The position numbers and the translations under genes are program-made. A stretch of DNA of 50,983 bases from Candidatus Dadabacteria bacterium (GTDB lineage Bacteria > Desulfobacterota_D > UBA1144 > Nemesobacterales > Nemesobacteraceae). Location: the NCBI GenBank assembly GCA_022819805.1, contig JAJEGO010000008.1, forward strand, positions 1 through 50,983, written 5' to 3'. Below the pieces are notes generated by a model, which was not told the origin of the DNA, did no database searches, and saw only the letters and a program-made list of their open reading frames with translations. Positions within the stretch are counted from its first letter, which is position 1. Every line of letters starts with the position of its first letter. This document shows, piece by piece, positions 28,357-35,499 of the stretch.

Positions 28357-28445
28357 TATTATACAAATAACTAACGGAAAAATAAACCGGAAGGCTCTAT
28401 TCGGGGATTGCCGTTCCCGCCATTGATTCAAAATTGCGAATATAC

Positions 28446-30062
28446 ATGCATAAATTTACTTCAGACAGAATTAACTCTAGCTTAATCTTTACACTTTGCG
28501 CCGTTTTCATCGTTTTTCTGCCGTGGGATTCCGCTACCGCACTCAGCAAGGATTTACTGGGGCCAACCCCATTTTCGCAAGAAGGACAGAACCAGTTCAT
28601 CGAGTCAGCACGGCAAACCGAAGAGCCCGAAGAAGTCAGAAAAATTGCGGAAAAAAGCCCTGATACCGCAACCCAGTTATCTTCCGAATCCGCCAAGCAA
28701 ATCCCGCAGGTTCCCCAGATAGAGCTCGGTACTCAAGAAACTTCGGCAGTCGGACGGACAAATCCCCAACAAAGTTATGAGGACATAAAATTCGAGGTAA
28801 AGAGAAACTCAAGAGTTGAACATTACGTACGCCGGTTCTCATCGGGAAAAGGGAAGAAAAACTTCGCCGAGATCCTCAAAAGGTCCGGCATATTTCTCCC
28901 GGAAATCAAGGAAATCCTCCGCTCCGAGGGAATTCCCTCAGACATTGCTTACCTCCCTCTAATAGAAAGCGGGTTTAACCCTAGGGCCGTTTCAAGAAAA
29001 AACGCCGTCGGGCTCTGGCAATTCATAAGACCGACCGGCCTGAAATACGGACTCAAAGTAAACTACTGGGTAGACGAGAGGATGAACGTAGAGAAATCAA
29101 CCTTGGCAGCGGCCAAATATCTCAAGAAGATGCATGAGGAATTCGGTTCATGGGAACTTGCTCTCGCGGGCTACAACTGCGGAGAGAAAAGAGTATCGAG
29201 GGCCATTAGGAAAACGGGTTCGACCGATTTCTGGACACTCTCGAGAAAGCTTCCGAGGGAAACAAGAAACTACCTGCCGAAATTCAACGCCGCTTTGATA
29301 ATAGCCAAGAACCCTGAGAAATACGGCTTCAGGGTCACGAAAATGGAGAAAGATTATCTAGCCGTGAGCGTTCCGCCCAGAAAGAGCATTGCGGAAATCG
29401 CCAACCTGCTTGACATGGGATACAAGGAAATTTCCAAATACAACCCCTCGCTTATAGGACTCTCCACTCCTCCCGGAGGAACTTATGAACTTAATGTTCC
29501 TAAAGACTACGCAAAGAAGCTCATTTCAGTCCAAGACCAGGTAATTGCCCTCAAGGACGTTGAAATTCCTTTCAGGACAAGGCCCACAAGATACACGGTG
29601 AGACAGGATGACAGCTTATGGAAAATAGCCAGGAAATTCGGAACGTCTGTAGAGAAACTCAAGTACGCAAACCACCTTTCCAGTTCGATCATACGTCCCG
29701 GACAAAGGCTTAAGATACCCTCGAGAGGAAATCTCGTATACGTAAAGCACAAGATCCGCCCTGGGGAAAACATTTACCTTCTGGCGAAAAGATACGGAAC
29801 TTCCATCGATGCGATAAAAAGGGCTAACAACCTCAAGGGTTCGCTTATAATAGCGGGGAAAACCCTCTCTATTCCCCAGAGACTCTCATCCACCTACGTA
29901 TCGCGCGACGTTCCGAGGAAAATGAACCACAAGATAATCCCCGGCGACACTCTGAGCGAACTGGCGCTTCGCTACAGGGTCTCGGTCTCCCAGATCAAGA
30001 GGTGGAACAACATGTCCTCAACCACCCTGATCGCCGGAAGAAATCTGGTCATTTACAAGTAA
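28446..30062 (+). CDS. mltD: Lytic murein transglycosylase with SLT and three LysM domains
   Basis: A 538-residue exported enzyme cutting the glycan strands of peptidoglycan, like MltD. An N-terminal hydrophobic segment (SSLIFTLCAVFIVFLP) is a signal or anchor. The SLT domain has IAYLPLIESGFNPRAVS with the catalytic glutamate, GLWQFIRPTGLKYGL and GYNCGE. Three C-terminal LysM units follow (each with YxVxxGDxLxxIAxx-type cores, for example HKIIPGDTLSELALRYRVS). No lipobox cysteine is evident. Followed 7 bp later by the Ogg2-type glycosylase gene, hence an operon. Confidence 0.93.
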   Translation: MHKFTSDRINSSLIFTLCAVFIVFLPWDSATALSKDLLGPTPFSQEGQNQFIESARQTEEPEEVRKIAEKSPDTATQLSSESAKQIPQVPQIELGTQETSAVGRTNPQQSYEDIKFEVKRNSRVEHYVRRFSSGKGKKNFAEILKRSGIFLPEIKEILRSEGIPSDIAYLPLIESGFNPRAVSRKNAVGLWQFIRPTGLKYGLKVNYWVDERMNVEKSTLAAAKYLKKMHEEFGSWELALAGYNCGEKRVSRAIRKTGSTDFWTLSRKLPRETRNYLPKFNAALIIAKNPEKYGFRVTKMEKDYLAVSVPPRKSIAEIANLLDMGYKEISKYNPSLIGLSTPPGGTYELNVPKDYAKKLISVQDQVIALKDVEIPFRTRPTRYTVRQDDSLWKIARKFGTSVEKLKYANHLSSSIIRPGQRLKIPSRGNLVYVKHKIRPGENIYLLAKRYGTSIDAIKRANNLKGSLIIAGKTLSIPQRLSSTYVSRDVPRKMNHKIIPGDTLSELALRYRVSVSQIKRWNNMSSTTLIAGRNLVIYK

Positions 30063-30069
30063 GCCCCGG

Positions 30070-30714
30070 ATGTTGACAGTACGGTCAATAAAGGAAACCC
30101 TTCCGCAAAAAACCCCCGAGATACAACACAAGCTCAAGGAATTTGAAAACATCATTAAAAACGCTTCTGAAGAAGTGATCTTCGAAGAACTGGTTTTCTG
30201 CATATTCACGGCCGGAACAAGCGCCAGAATGGGACTCAGTGCAGTTAACGCCGTAAGAAGCATACTTCCGAGCGCAAGCGAGGATGAACTCAAGGCAAAA
30301 CTTCGGGGATTATACAGATTTCCGAACGTGCGCTCAAAACACGTGATCCACACAAGAGACTATCTTGCCCGAGAATATGGACTCAAGCTGAGGCCGCTTC
30401 TTCTGTCGTTTGAAGATCCGGTCAAGAGAAGAGATTTTTTCGCCCTTAACAAGGATGTAAAGGGGCTCGGTTTCAAGGAAGCAAGCCATTTTCTAAGAAA
30501 CATCGGTTTTCGTGGTTACGCAATACTTGACAAGCACATACTCCAGTGTCTTTTCGAACTCGGTATAACGGAATCCCCGCGGGCACCGCACTCAAGGTCG
30601 AAATACATCGAGATTGAAAACAAGTTTAAGAGATTCTCCGAGAGAAACGGATTTGATTTTGATGAAATGGATCTGTTTCTCTGGAGTGAAAAAACAGGCG
30701 AAATACTGAAATAA
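30070..30714 (+). CDS. Ogg2-type 8-oxoguanine DNA glycosylase/lyase
   Basis: A 214-residue DNA repair enzyme of the archaeal Ogg2 class (thermostable 8-oxoguanine DNA glycosylase, N-glycosylase/DNA lyase), removing oxidised guanine and cutting the strand by beta-elimination. The helix-hairpin-helix GLGFKEASHFLRN carries the Schiff-base lysine Lys136; the catalytic aspartate Asp154 is in YAILDKHIL, 18 residues later, the spacing of the M. jannaschii enzyme. The N-terminal part and the C-terminal DFDEMDLFLWSEKTGEI match the family. Bacterial carriers of this class are uncommon. It is followed after 25 bp by a diverged paralogue. Confidence 0.88.
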   Translation: MLTVRSIKETLPQKTPEIQHKLKEFENIIKNASEEVIFEELVFCIFTAGTSARMGLSAVNAVRSILPSASEDELKAKLRGLYRFPNVRSKHVIHTRDYLAREYGLKLRPLLLSFEDPVKRRDFFALNKDVKGLGFKEASHFLRNIGFRGYAILDKHILQCLFELGITESPRAPHSRSKYIEIENKFKRFSERNGFDFDEMDLFLWSEKTGEILK

Positions 30715-30739
30715 GGCCTCGGAAAAAAGAACTCCTCGT

Positions 30740-31390
30740 ATGACTGAGAAACAAAAACGGGAACTCCTGGAACTCTACGGGCTCAGAAAAGAAGAAATAC
30801 GGAAGCGGCTTTCGGAATTCAAAGAGACTTTCCAAAAGGCCGATGACCTCCAGGTATTCCATGAACTCTCATTCTGCATATTGAGTTCCGGTGTCGGTCC
30901 CAAAATAGCCGACCGGTGCATTAGGGCCATGGGAGAAAAACTTGCGAAGGGAGAAGAAGATGAACTGTTGGGCCGCATCGAAGCGATTCATAAATATGCC
31001 GAAAACTCCTCCCGCTATATCGTTTTTACAAGGGAATACCTTAAAAAAGAACACGGGTTTCTTCTTAAATCGCTTGTGAGTTCCTTTGAAGACAGGGTGG
31101 AGAGAAGAGATTTCTTTGCAAAGAACCCGGGAATAAAAGGACTCGGATACATGCAGGCAAGCCATTTTCTGAGGAATCTGGGATTCTCCGGCTATGCGAT
31201 TCTTGACCGAAATAACCTGGTGTCCCTTTCCGAACTGGGGATCACGGGCGAGATGAAATATCCCCTGTCAAAGAGAAGGTACATCGAGACGGAAAACCTG
31301 ATGGCGGATGCCGCCCGTGAACTGGGAATGAGTCTTGATGAATTTGACCTGCTCCTTTGGTCAAGGAAAAGAAAATACATCCCGAGATAG
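30740..31390 (+). CDS. Ogg2-like paralogue lacking the catalytic lysine
   Basis: A 216-residue paralogue of the preceding glycosylase. The helix-hairpin-helix reads GLGYMQASHFLRN: position 138, where the active lysine belongs, is methionine; the aspartate Asp156 in YAILDRNNL remains. The shape (FCIL..G, RRDFFAKNPGIKGLGY, SLDEFDLLLWSRK) is otherwise kept, so the reading frame is under selection and not simply broken. It may have become a monofunctional glycosylase without lyase action or a lesion-binding protein. The stop codon is 2 bp from the convergent PIG-L gene. Confidence 0.8.
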   Translation: MTEKQKRELLELYGLRKEEIRKRLSEFKETFQKADDLQVFHELSFCILSSGVGPKIADRCIRAMGEKLAKGEEDELLGRIEAIHKYAENSSRYIVFTREYLKKEHGFLLKSLVSSFEDRVERRDFFAKNPGIKGLGYMQASHFLRNLGFSGYAILDRNNLVSLSELGITGEMKYPLSKRRYIETENLMADAARELGMSLDEFDLLLWSRKRKYIPR

Positions 31391-31392
31391 GA

Positions 31393-32058
31393 TCACTCGG
31401 AGTCGTGTTTTATAAAAACCTCGGCCCAAAGCGGTGCGAATCCATCCGCGGTATCGTGAAAAGCACCCCTGTACCTGTTAAGGCCCATTATACCGTCGGT
31501 GTAGTCCTTGTAGGCAGTCTGGCTCCTGTGCGCCTCGATCGCCTGACGCTTGCGGTCGGCAAAAGACGTTATATCCTCGATACGGTCGTATGAGGGAAAA
31601 GGTGTCCATACCTCATAAAACCAGCATTCGCTCTCAAAAGTAGTCTCCTTAATTGCCGCCTTAAGACAATCAAGCGTCAGACGCGAAACCGTCCTGTGGG
31701 TTCTGTGCTTGTCAATTTCGGGATGCGGGAGGTATACCTCCCCCGGGCGGAGATCTGTTATTATTTCCACCATCCTAGAACTGAATTCATGCTTGTTCAA
31801 ATCGGATTCCATGTCGGAGAACCCGAGAAGAGAAATCTCCACTCCGAGTATTTCTGATGATTCCCTGACTTCGCGCTCCCTTGTCCGCACAAGTTGCTCC
31901 TGCGTGATACCAAGAGGATTAGCACTTCTTCTTCCATCCGTAACGACAACGGAAATCACGTCAATACCTCTTTCCAGAAGCAGGCAGACCGTTCCTCCCA
32001 TGCCTATTTCAAGATCGTCAGGGTGGGGAGAAATTATAAGGGCTTTTGTCTCTTGCAT
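31393..32058 (-). CDS. PIG-L/LmbE-family deacetylase
   Basis: A 221-residue zinc deacetylase of the PIG-L/LmbE fold. The zinc/catalytic motif PHPDDLEIGMGG is near residue 12 and the later conserved histidine in YLPHPEIDKHRTH. The family removes N-acetyl groups from GlcNAc-type sugars (for example in bacillithiol, mycothiol or glycan synthesis); the substrate is unknown. ATG 32058; no strong ribosome site is evident. Confidence 0.9.
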   Translation of the reverse strand: MQETKALIISPHPDDLEIGMGGTVCLLLERGIDVISVVVTDGRRSANPLGITQEQLVRTREREVRESSEILGVEISLLGFSDMESDLNKHEFSSRMVEIITDLRPGEVYLPHPEIDKHRTHRTVSRLTLDCLKAAIKETTFESECWFYEVWTPFPSYDRIEDITSFADRKRQAIEAHRSQTAYKDYTDGIMGLNRYRGAFHDTADGFAPLWAEVFIKHDSE

Positions 32059-34068: not shown

Positions 34069-35499
34069 ATGCAATACGAAGCGGTAATCGGTCTCGAAGT
34101 ACACGCACAGCTCGCCACTGAATCTAAGATATTTTCTTCTTCCTCAACGAAATTCGGAAATCCCCCCAACTCCCAGGTGAATCCGGTCTGTCTGGGCATG
34201 CCGGGGGTGCTGCCGGTTTTTAATGAAAGGGTTCTTGAGTACGCAATAAAAGCGGGACTGGCGACCAACTGCGAAATCGCCCGGAAATCCAGATTCGCAA
34301 GGAAGAACTACTTTTACCCGGATCTTCCGAAGGGCTACCAGATTTCCCAGTACGACGAGCCGCTTTGCCTTAGGGGACATCTCGAGATAGATTCGGGGAA
34401 CGGCAAAAAGAAAATCAGAATAACCCGGATACATCTGGAAGAAGACGCAGGGAAACTGGTGCACGAATACTCCGACTTCGAAAGCCACGTTGATCTCAAC
34501 AGGGCAGGAGTGCCGCTTGTGGAAATAGTAAGCGAGCCCGACATCTCAACCGCCGAAGAAGCGGTTGAATACGTAAAGAAACTTAGGACAATCCTCAGAT
34601 ATATCGAGGTCTGCGACGGGAACATGGAGGAAGGAAGCCTGCGCTGCGACGCGAATGTTTCCGTGCGGCCGGTAGGACAGAGCGAACTCGGGACAAAAAC
34701 CGAGATAAAAAACCTGAATTCCTTCCGCTTCATACAAAGAGCCATAGAGTATGAAACAAAGAGGCAGGAGGCGGTCCTTCAAAGCGGAGGGAAAGTTGTT
34801 CAGGAAACAAGGCTTTTTGACTCACAAAAAGGGGTCACGTTTGCGATGAGATCAAAAGAAGAGGCTCATGACTACAGGTATTTCCCGGATCCTGACCTCC
34901 TGCCGGTAGTCGTGGAGGAAGATCACCTGGAGGAAGTCCGTCTCTCCCTTCCGGAACTACCTGACGAAAAACTCAGAAGGTTTGTGGACGAGTTCTCCCT
35001 ACCGAAAAATGATGCGGAAACGCTTTCATCCTCAAAACCGCTTGCCGAATACTTTGAAGAGTGCGCAAAACACGCAAATGACAATAAAACGGCAAGCAAC
35101 TGGATTTTAAACGAGCTTTTAAGAGAAATTGAAAACGAGGACGGGATAGCGGAATTTCCCGTTAAGCCCGGGGATCTTGCCGAACTGCTGAACCTTATCG
35201 GGGAAGGAAAGATAAACCGCAAGACCGCCAAGGAAATATTCTCCGAGATGATAAGCGGAGGTAAACGCGCCGGAGAAATAGTAGCGGAGAAGGGGCTTAC
35301 CCAGATCACGGATGAAGGCGAGATTTCTTCGATTATAGAGAAAATAATCAAAGAAAATCCGAAGGAAGTTCAAAGGTACAAAGCCGGAGATACTAAGCTT
35401 CTCGGATTCTTCGTCGGTCAGGCTATGAAGGCGACCAAGGGGAAAGCCGACCCCGCAGTTGTGAACCAAACGCTCAGAAGATCCCTTGAAGAAGGATAA
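34069..35499 (+). CDS. gatB: Asp/Glu-tRNA amidotransferase subunit B
   Basis: GatB activates Glu-tRNA(Gln) or Asp-tRNA(Asn) for amidation by GatCA, giving Gln-tRNA and Asn-tRNA. The 476-residue protein starts with EAVIGLEVHAQL and has YYPDLPKGYQISQYDEP, MEEGSLRCDANVS and KNLNSFRFIQRAIEYE, with the YqeY-like C-terminal helical domain (about 400-476). GAAGGAACG precedes the ATG. GatA and GatC are not in the window, so gatB is separated from the usual gatCAB cluster. Confidence 0.96.
   Translation: MQYEAVIGLEVHAQLATESKIFSSSSTKFGNPPNSQVNPVCLGMPGVLPVFNERVLEYAIKAGLATNCEIARKSRFARKNYFYPDLPKGYQISQYDEPLCLRGHLEIDSGNGKKKIRITRIHLEEDAGKLVHEYSDFESHVDLNRAGVPLVEIVSEPDISTAEEAVEYVKKLRTILRYIEVCDGNMEEGSLRCDANVSVRPVGQSELGTKTEIKNLNSFRFIQRAIEYETKRQEAVLQSGGKVVQETRLFDSQKGVTFAMRSKEEAHDYRYFPDPDLLPVVVEEDHLEEVRLSLPELPDEKLRRFVDEFSLPKNDAETLSSSKPLAEYFEECAKHANDNKTASNWILNELLREIENEDGIAEFPVKPGDLAELLNLIGEGKINRKTAKEIFSEMISGGKRAGEIVAEKGLTQITDEGEISSIIEKIIKENPKEVQRYKAGDTKLLGFFVGQAMKATKGKADPAVVNQTLRRSLEEG

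Follow-up and report, generated by a model that had tools for sequence, protein, structure and literature searches.

A conserved lysine-less twin of the Ogg2 8-oxoguanine DNA glycosylase in an order of Dadabacteria suggests a second repair or damage-sensing role

We find that a whole bacterial order within the Dadabacteria keeps one Ogg2 protein with the Schiff-base lysine of the family and one Ogg2 protein without it, and that further active-site changes are fixed in the second. The pair was found in a window of 50,983 nucleotides, this being the whole stretch of DNA analysed (contig JAJEGO010000008.1 of a Candidatus Dadabacteria genome), where the two genes, here called ogg2 and ogg2x, lie side by side. 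This lysine attacks the sugar in HhH glycosylases and makes strand cleavage possible (PMC8307549), and it is debated from engineered mutants whether the lysine of OGG proteins serves base removal or just a dispensable lyase step (PMC3397491, PMC13022620). The conservation of the lysine-less twin suggests a second job in repair or in damage sensing. The reading that we favor, with a probability of about 0.5, is that Ogg2x would be an Ogg2-derived glycosylase with altered recognition and without lyase activity.

The two genes follow a gene for an mltD-like lytic transglycosylase, with 7 bases between that gene and ogg2 and 25 bases between ogg2 and ogg2x (Table 1). A preliminary description of this DNA, made from its letters alone, had stated that both frames are intact and that both proteins have the same fold, and both statements are borne out here. 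The frames are open on the forward strand throughout 30070-30714 and 30740-31390. The neighbouring genes mltD, PIG-L and gatB were named by inspection of the sequence and from the preliminary description.

Table 1. Coordinates of the ogg2-ogg2x pair, its diagnostic residues and its neighbours within the window.
Feature	Position	Strand	Basis
gene of an mltD-like lytic transglycosylase (LysM repeats), next gene upstream of ogg2	28434..30062	+	named from sequence
ogg2 (first copy), Ogg2-type 8-oxoguanine DNA glycosylase/AP lyase, 214 aa	30070..30714	+	PF22175, NF002305 and 3fhf matches
Lys136 codon of ogg2, Schiff-base lysine (K129 of M. jannaschii Ogg)	30475..30477	+	alignment
ogg2x (second copy), lysine-less Ogg2 paralogue, 216 aa	30740..31390	+	PF22175, fold, one of 35 full-length copies in the order
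ogg2x Lys85-Tyr86, aligned with Arg84-Phe85 of M. jannaschii Ogg	30992..30997	+	class-switching columns; roles from PMC3397491, PMC9638937
ogg2x Met138-Gln139, in place of the catalytic Lys and the next Glu	31151..31156	+	alignment
ogg2x Asp156, kept catalytic aspartate (D147 of M. jannaschii Ogg)	31205..31207	+	alignment
ogg2x Asn158, in place of a conserved His (H149 of M. jannaschii Ogg)	31211..31213	+	alignment
ogg2x Pro215-Arg216, changed C-terminus	31382..31387	+	alignment; role from PMC3397491
PIG-L-type deacetylase-like gene, convergent neighbour, conserved in order	31393..32058	-	sequence motif ISPHPDDLEIG
gatB, which anchors the conserved gene order on the downstream side	34069..35499	+	named from sequence

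Both proteins belong to the Ogg-HhH family PF22175, which was the sole Pfam match of each (163.4 bits for Ogg2 and 127.4 bits for Ogg2x, against a cut-off of 27). The Ogg2 protein passes the NCBIfam equivalog NF002305 for N-glycosylase/DNA lyase, scoring 184.3 bits against a cut-off of 183, and Ogg2x falls below that cut-off at 148.2 bits. The best solved relatives of both are the Ogg2 structures 3fhf, 3knt, 3n0u and 3fhg, the first copy matching 3fhf with an E value of 1e-31. The hallmarks of Ogg2 are complete in the first copy (K136, D154, H156, W205 and the C-terminal K214), and this protein is presumably a normal bifunctional 8-oxoguanine glycosylase/lyase. The AlphaFold model of Ogg2x is a confident one (pLDDT 95.6, pTM 0.90), and shows an all-helical HhH fold of 216 residues without the A-domain of OGG1; its best structural match is 3knt, with a TM-score of 0.86-0.92 (0.86 on the query, 32% identity). 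Set against the Ogg2 proteins of known structure as a group (M. jannaschii Ogg, 3fhf/3knt; T. maritima TM1821, 3n0u; S. solfataricus Ogg, 3fhg), Ogg2x gives TM-scores of 0.80-0.87 on the query at 27-32% identity. It resembles them in having no N-terminal A-domain and in keeping the catalytic Asp and the pocket residues His133 and Trp198, but differs in having no Schiff-base Lys, in the changes of Glu130 to Gln, His149 to Asn and Arg84-Phe85 to Lys-Tyr, and in a C-terminus changed from Leu-Lys to Pro-Arg. Ogg2x is thus an Ogg2-derived protein of the Ogg-HhH domain family that should not be filed as an Ogg2 glycosylase/lyase, because it has neither the catalytic nor the C-terminal lysine and scores below the equivalog cut-off. 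Automatic annotation probably calls it an ordinary N-glycosylase/DNA lyase.

Alignment with M. jannaschii Ogg (3fhf, 3knt) places K129 of that protein at Lys136 of Ogg2 and at Met138 of Ogg2x (codon ATG at 31151-31153), and places D147 at Asp154 and Asp156, respectively. The 3knt chain has Gln at position 129 where 3fhf has Lys, which fixes the identity of the site. The description of a lysine in the first protein replaced by methionine in the second, with the aspartate kept in both, therefore holds, and the alignment does not place the lysine elsewhere. Relocation of the lysine within Ogg2x was rejected as no class-specific new lysine was found in the pocket; the sole new conserved lysine of the lysine-less class is at position 84, an opposite-base contact, and the position at +4 from the lysine site is His.

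The site was then compared across the 35 full-length second copies, which come from four families of the order (f1, f3, f5 and f7). None has lysine there, the residue being Met in 13, Thr in 14, Val in 5 and Leu in 3, and the residue that follows is Gln throughout. Met138 had been proposed for a check of conservation in orthologues; it is the absence of lysine that is conserved, while Met itself is specific to the family of the window and gives way to Thr, Val or Leu in the other families. Thr and Val at this site are encoded by several synonymous codons, so the class of residue is held while the codon drifts, and no charged or bulky aromatic residue is accepted in the lysine-less clade. The catalytic Asp is kept in all 35 copies, with both Asp codons in use. 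Lysine occupies the site in 45/45 first copies and in 37/37 Ogg2 proteins from other bacterial phyla. The window genome is a draft (1.57 Mb, 71 contigs, 93% completeness), which would leave room for Met138 to be an error of sequencing or of assembly, a mutation private to this genome or the mark of a decaying pseudogene, but we regard this as scarcely credible: sequencing error and private mutation were rejected on the 35 full-length copies from separate assemblies across the order, and pseudogene decay on frames that are open throughout and on the selection data that follow.

The second copy is under purifying selection. Its median pairwise dN/dS, determined within the genus by the Nei-Gojobori method, is 0.137 (66 pairs), a value that answers a check proposed in the preliminary description; the median for the first copy is 0.102 (89 pairs), the two sets differing by two genomes. 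To describe what else has changed, we took the 75 columns that are at least 85% conserved in first copies and found ten of them replaced in at least 90% of second copies, these being positions 48, 51, 52, 84, 85, 87, 129, 130, 149 and 206 in M. jannaschii numbering. Four of the eight positions with a published active-site role are among the ten (hypergeometric p about 0.009, the positions having been chosen post hoc). Residue roles for Ogg2 were taken from a review (PMC3397491). According to this source Arg84 of M. jannaschii Ogg is the only residue bonding the opposite cytosine and Phe85 adjoins the opposite base, and positions 84-85 have the roles of opposite-base contact and DNA filler (PMC3397491, PMC9638937); Arg84-Phe85 is replaced by Lys-Tyr in second copies. 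The His beside the catalytic Asp, numbered His148 in PMC3397491 and 149 here, moves to a phosphate contact with Trp198; at this position Asn is found in 34 of the 35 lysine-less copies and His in 82/82 lysine-bearing ones.

The C-terminus has also changed. Ogg2 ends in an invariant Lys, whose place is taken by Arg216 in the Ogg2x of the window; the carboxylate of this Lys reads the N7-H of 8-oxoguanine (PMC3397491). Across the lysine-less clade the last residue is R in 16, K in 11, V in 5, L in 1 and I in 1, preceded by Pro in 34/34. The length of the chain after the Trp is unchanged in Ogg2x, so the terminal carboxylate may still sit in place. The pocket residues His133 (35/35) and Trp198 (34 of the 34 copies with sequence there) are kept in second copies, corresponding to His142 and Trp207 of Ogg2x. 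Judged by its residues, the second copy is probably a protein of altered recognition with a retained core and not one in decay.

A branch with 100/93 support separates the lysine-less copies from the others. When the diagnostic columns were removed and other phyla used as the outgroup, the lysine-less copies still grouped (85/94) with the exception of the genome G018, both copies of which fall together because most of the 3' half of that pair is near-identical. The order of genes is mltD-ogg2-PIG-L-gatB in family f8, mltD-ogg2-ogg2x-(PIG-L)-gatB in f1, f7 and most of f5, and in f3 is divided between mltD-ogg2 at one place and ogg2x-PIG-L-gatB at another. The simplest account is a tandem duplication of ogg2 in place, in an ancestor of the order, with a later split in f3 of which both halves were kept. 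The duplication is old, and one copy is permanently without the lysine. The preliminary description had considered a location behind mltD to be odd, a view that we revise, as the ancestral location of ogg2 in this phylum is within mltD-ogg2-(PIG-L)-gatB. A phage or plasmid origin was rejected (no match among phages, none among viral contigs, and two weak matches at about 30% identity in a plasmid collection). Horizontal import of the second copy was likewise rejected, the gene lying in the ancestral slot and the lysine-less motif being absent from 282 genomes of other phyla.

The gene order also bears upon the possibility that Ogg2x works as an obligate partner to Ogg2, in a heterodimer or by allosteric action. 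The tandem and probably co-transcribed genes of f1, f7 and most of f5 are consistent with such a partnership, but in f3 and in the genome G022 the two genes are separated, on distinct contigs or at distinct loci, and both are kept, the first copy is found alone in f2, f6 and f8, and second copies showed neither a conserved extension nor a new surface motif. We consider a partnership improbable, and of the roles put forward in the preliminary description (lesion sensor, heteropartner, or glycosylase without lyase action) it is the least likely because the genes are unlinked in one whole family.

The second copy is present in 13 of 15 genomes of f1, in 13 of f3 together with a fragment, in 7/7 of f5 and in 2/2 of f7; families f2, f6 and f8 are single-copy, retaining the first copy alone. 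In the genome G038 just the first copy was seen, and in G017, which is 74% complete, neither. The second copy has been lost without remnant from G004 and G010, which are of the same genus, and is therefore dispensable in some genomes. Ogg2 itself was found in 57/58 Dadabacteria genomes and in 37/282 genomes of other bacterial phyla, and OGG2 is known from bacteria and archaea (PMC3397491), so that the earlier characterization of Ogg2 as mostly archaeal and odd in a bacterium does not stand. All 37 Ogg2 proteins from other phyla have the Lys, the D-x-H motif and a C-terminal Lys, and a search of the 282 genomes did not find the lysine-less motif. Within the genomes searched, the lysine-less form looks special to this order, and a search of openly licensed papers found no description of a natural lysine-less Ogg2.

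Several other sequences were encountered in these searches. Contig JAGWBU010000215.1, titled Poribacteria (L040), holds a version of the Dadabacteria pair that is about 87% identical and has a broken or shifted second frame; the contig is probably mis-binned. Two Ogg2 genes from other phyla, L130 (G244) and L131 (G099), encode proteins that have the Lys and a C-terminal ILK and resemble the first copy of Dadabacteria unusually closely (E about 1e-77); horizontal transfer of these genes is possible. A third and distant PF22175 protein of 239 aa (L098, G005:C9:142598-143149), seen in a single genome of the genus, has the Lys and a different C-terminus.

The genome G018 provides a natural near-chimera of the two classes. 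Across most of the final 126 residues (91-216) its tandem copies (L058) hardly differ in nucleotide sequence, and the segment as a whole has six amino-acid differences: R110K, K138T, E139Q, E213H, L215P and K216R. Codons that differ between the copies are concentrated at the lysine site, with 7 of 11 in 136-146 as compared with 2 of the 45 before and 1 of the 66 after (147-212). This pattern is as expected after a recent gene conversion between the copies that left an unconverted island at the lysine site, although a single genome assembly is its source, in which near repeats may have been assembled wrongly. The copies still differ at the lysine site and at the C-terminus while the rest is homogenised. 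Asn at 149 is lost in the G018 second copy, and is therefore not essential to the lysine-less class. Comparison of the two classes, this near-chimera included, could show what allows an OGG site to function, or to take on another use, without its lysine.

We favor a lyase-free glycosylase because Ogg2x shows the pattern of a monofunctional HhH enzyme: the monofunctional enzymes MutY, AlkA and MBD4 have a non-basic residue at the lysine site and keep the Asp (PMC8307549). Ogg2x is like them in both respects, and differs in belonging to the Ogg-HhH family by sequence and structure. Most likely Ogg2x would still bend DNA and flip the base, and would employ the kept Asp with a water molecule, by monofunctional chemistry, in place of the lysine Schiff base. 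The abasic site would be left intact and could then be processed by endonuclease IV, for which the genome has a candidate gene, or by the lyase of the first copy. The target is probably not simply 8-oxoguanine opposite any base, because the base pocket and the opposite-base contacts have changed in a fixed way. Catalysis, the absence of lyase action, the changed specificity and the hand-off are what we infer for Ogg2x; consistent with them are the Asp147 equivalent, kept in every copy while the site is never Lys, the retained His133 and Trp198 with few switched columns (10/75), the low dN/dS and strong clade support, and the concentration of G018 differences at the lysine site and the C-terminus. 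A review has argued that hOGG1 itself may act monofunctionally in cells (PMC3397491).

Against a lyase-free glycosylase is the observation that removal of the lysine abolishes excision in enzymes that normally use it. For AGOG, the K142Q form is described as inactive, and K140 in Pae-AGOG as absolutely necessary (PMC9638937); NTHL1 K220Q has no catalytic activity but stays bound at lesions (PMC13022620). In addition, no substitute lysine was found in Ogg2x, His being present at +4 where an engineered Lys makes NTHL1 monofunctional-like; the conserved Asp could be structural; and the gene has been lost from two genomes of one genus. The main rival is accordingly a non-catalytic binder that flips the lesion or abasic site without cutting the base and serves as sensor or shield, handing over to Ogg2 or endonuclease IV; it holds this place because the lysine mutants of AGOG and NTHL1 are inactive and because paralogues of the Mag2 and AlkD2 type exist. 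We regard it as a tentative but genuine possibility. Single substitutions of the Lys in relatives give proteins that bind without cutting, as with NTHL1 K220Q, and 3knt carries Gln at 129. Non-catalytic glycosylase paralogues are known in Mag2 of fission yeast (S. pombe), AlkF, AlkG and AlkD2 (PMC4433238), and Mag2 is among the Foldseek matches of Ogg2x. Like these proteins Ogg2x is a conserved glycosylase paralogue with altered recognition features, but it strictly keeps the catalytic Asp, seemingly more than a binder needs. Furthermore, the site takes M, T, V and L and no charged or bulky aromatic residue, as if a pocket were being kept open, and the fixed opposite-base changes suggest that the target has changed, not that the enzyme is dead and still directed at the former target. 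The engineered mutants (AGOG K142Q, NTHL1 K220Q and the Gln129 of 3knt) are altered at the same residue position as Ogg2x but were made in the laboratory with the rest of the site unchanged, whereas Ogg2x represents a natural clade in which several positions changed together.

The repair setting of the genome was examined by family searches. The window genome has an Nth, a 3-methyladenine-glycosylase-like HhH protein, members of the uracil-DNA glycosylase family and an endonuclease IV-like gene. Fpg was not found in it, and is present in 2/58 genomes of the phylum. MutY above the curated cut-off was found in 0/58 Dadabacteria genomes, the best matches inspected being Nth-type or 3-methyladenine-glycosylase-like, but the same cut-off was reached in just half of the well-known control genomes (7 of 14), so MutY may be present in a divergent form. 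The oxidised-guanine repair set of Dadabacteria seems to rest on Ogg2.

These gaps raise the question of whether Ogg2x stands in the place of MutY, removing adenine or another normal base opposite 8-oxoguanine. The lack of recognized MutY and the scarcity of Fpg would accord with such a replacement, as would the presence of the opposite-base positions 84, 85 and 87 among the switched columns. We nevertheless find it unlikely: the catalytic Glu of MutY is not at the equivalent place when judged by eye, Ogg2x has no match to MutY models (its sole matches are NF002305 in NCBIfam, with E values up to 0.1 considered, and PF22175 in Pfam), and single-Ogg2 families are also without a recognized MutY, so the second copy does not track the MutY gap. 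Equally doubtful is the wider proposal of a two-enzyme system for oxidised guanine derived from one gene, in which Ogg2 would remove 8-oxoguanine and the lyase-free twin would handle the replication mispair, filling the MutY slot. The searches also brought up a second Nth-like protein (motif GVGRKTANL), not found in the draft genome of the window, in many relatives (L178, L179, L182, L186, L188 and L193); that of L178 scored 191.6 bits against an nth cut-off of 211.7.
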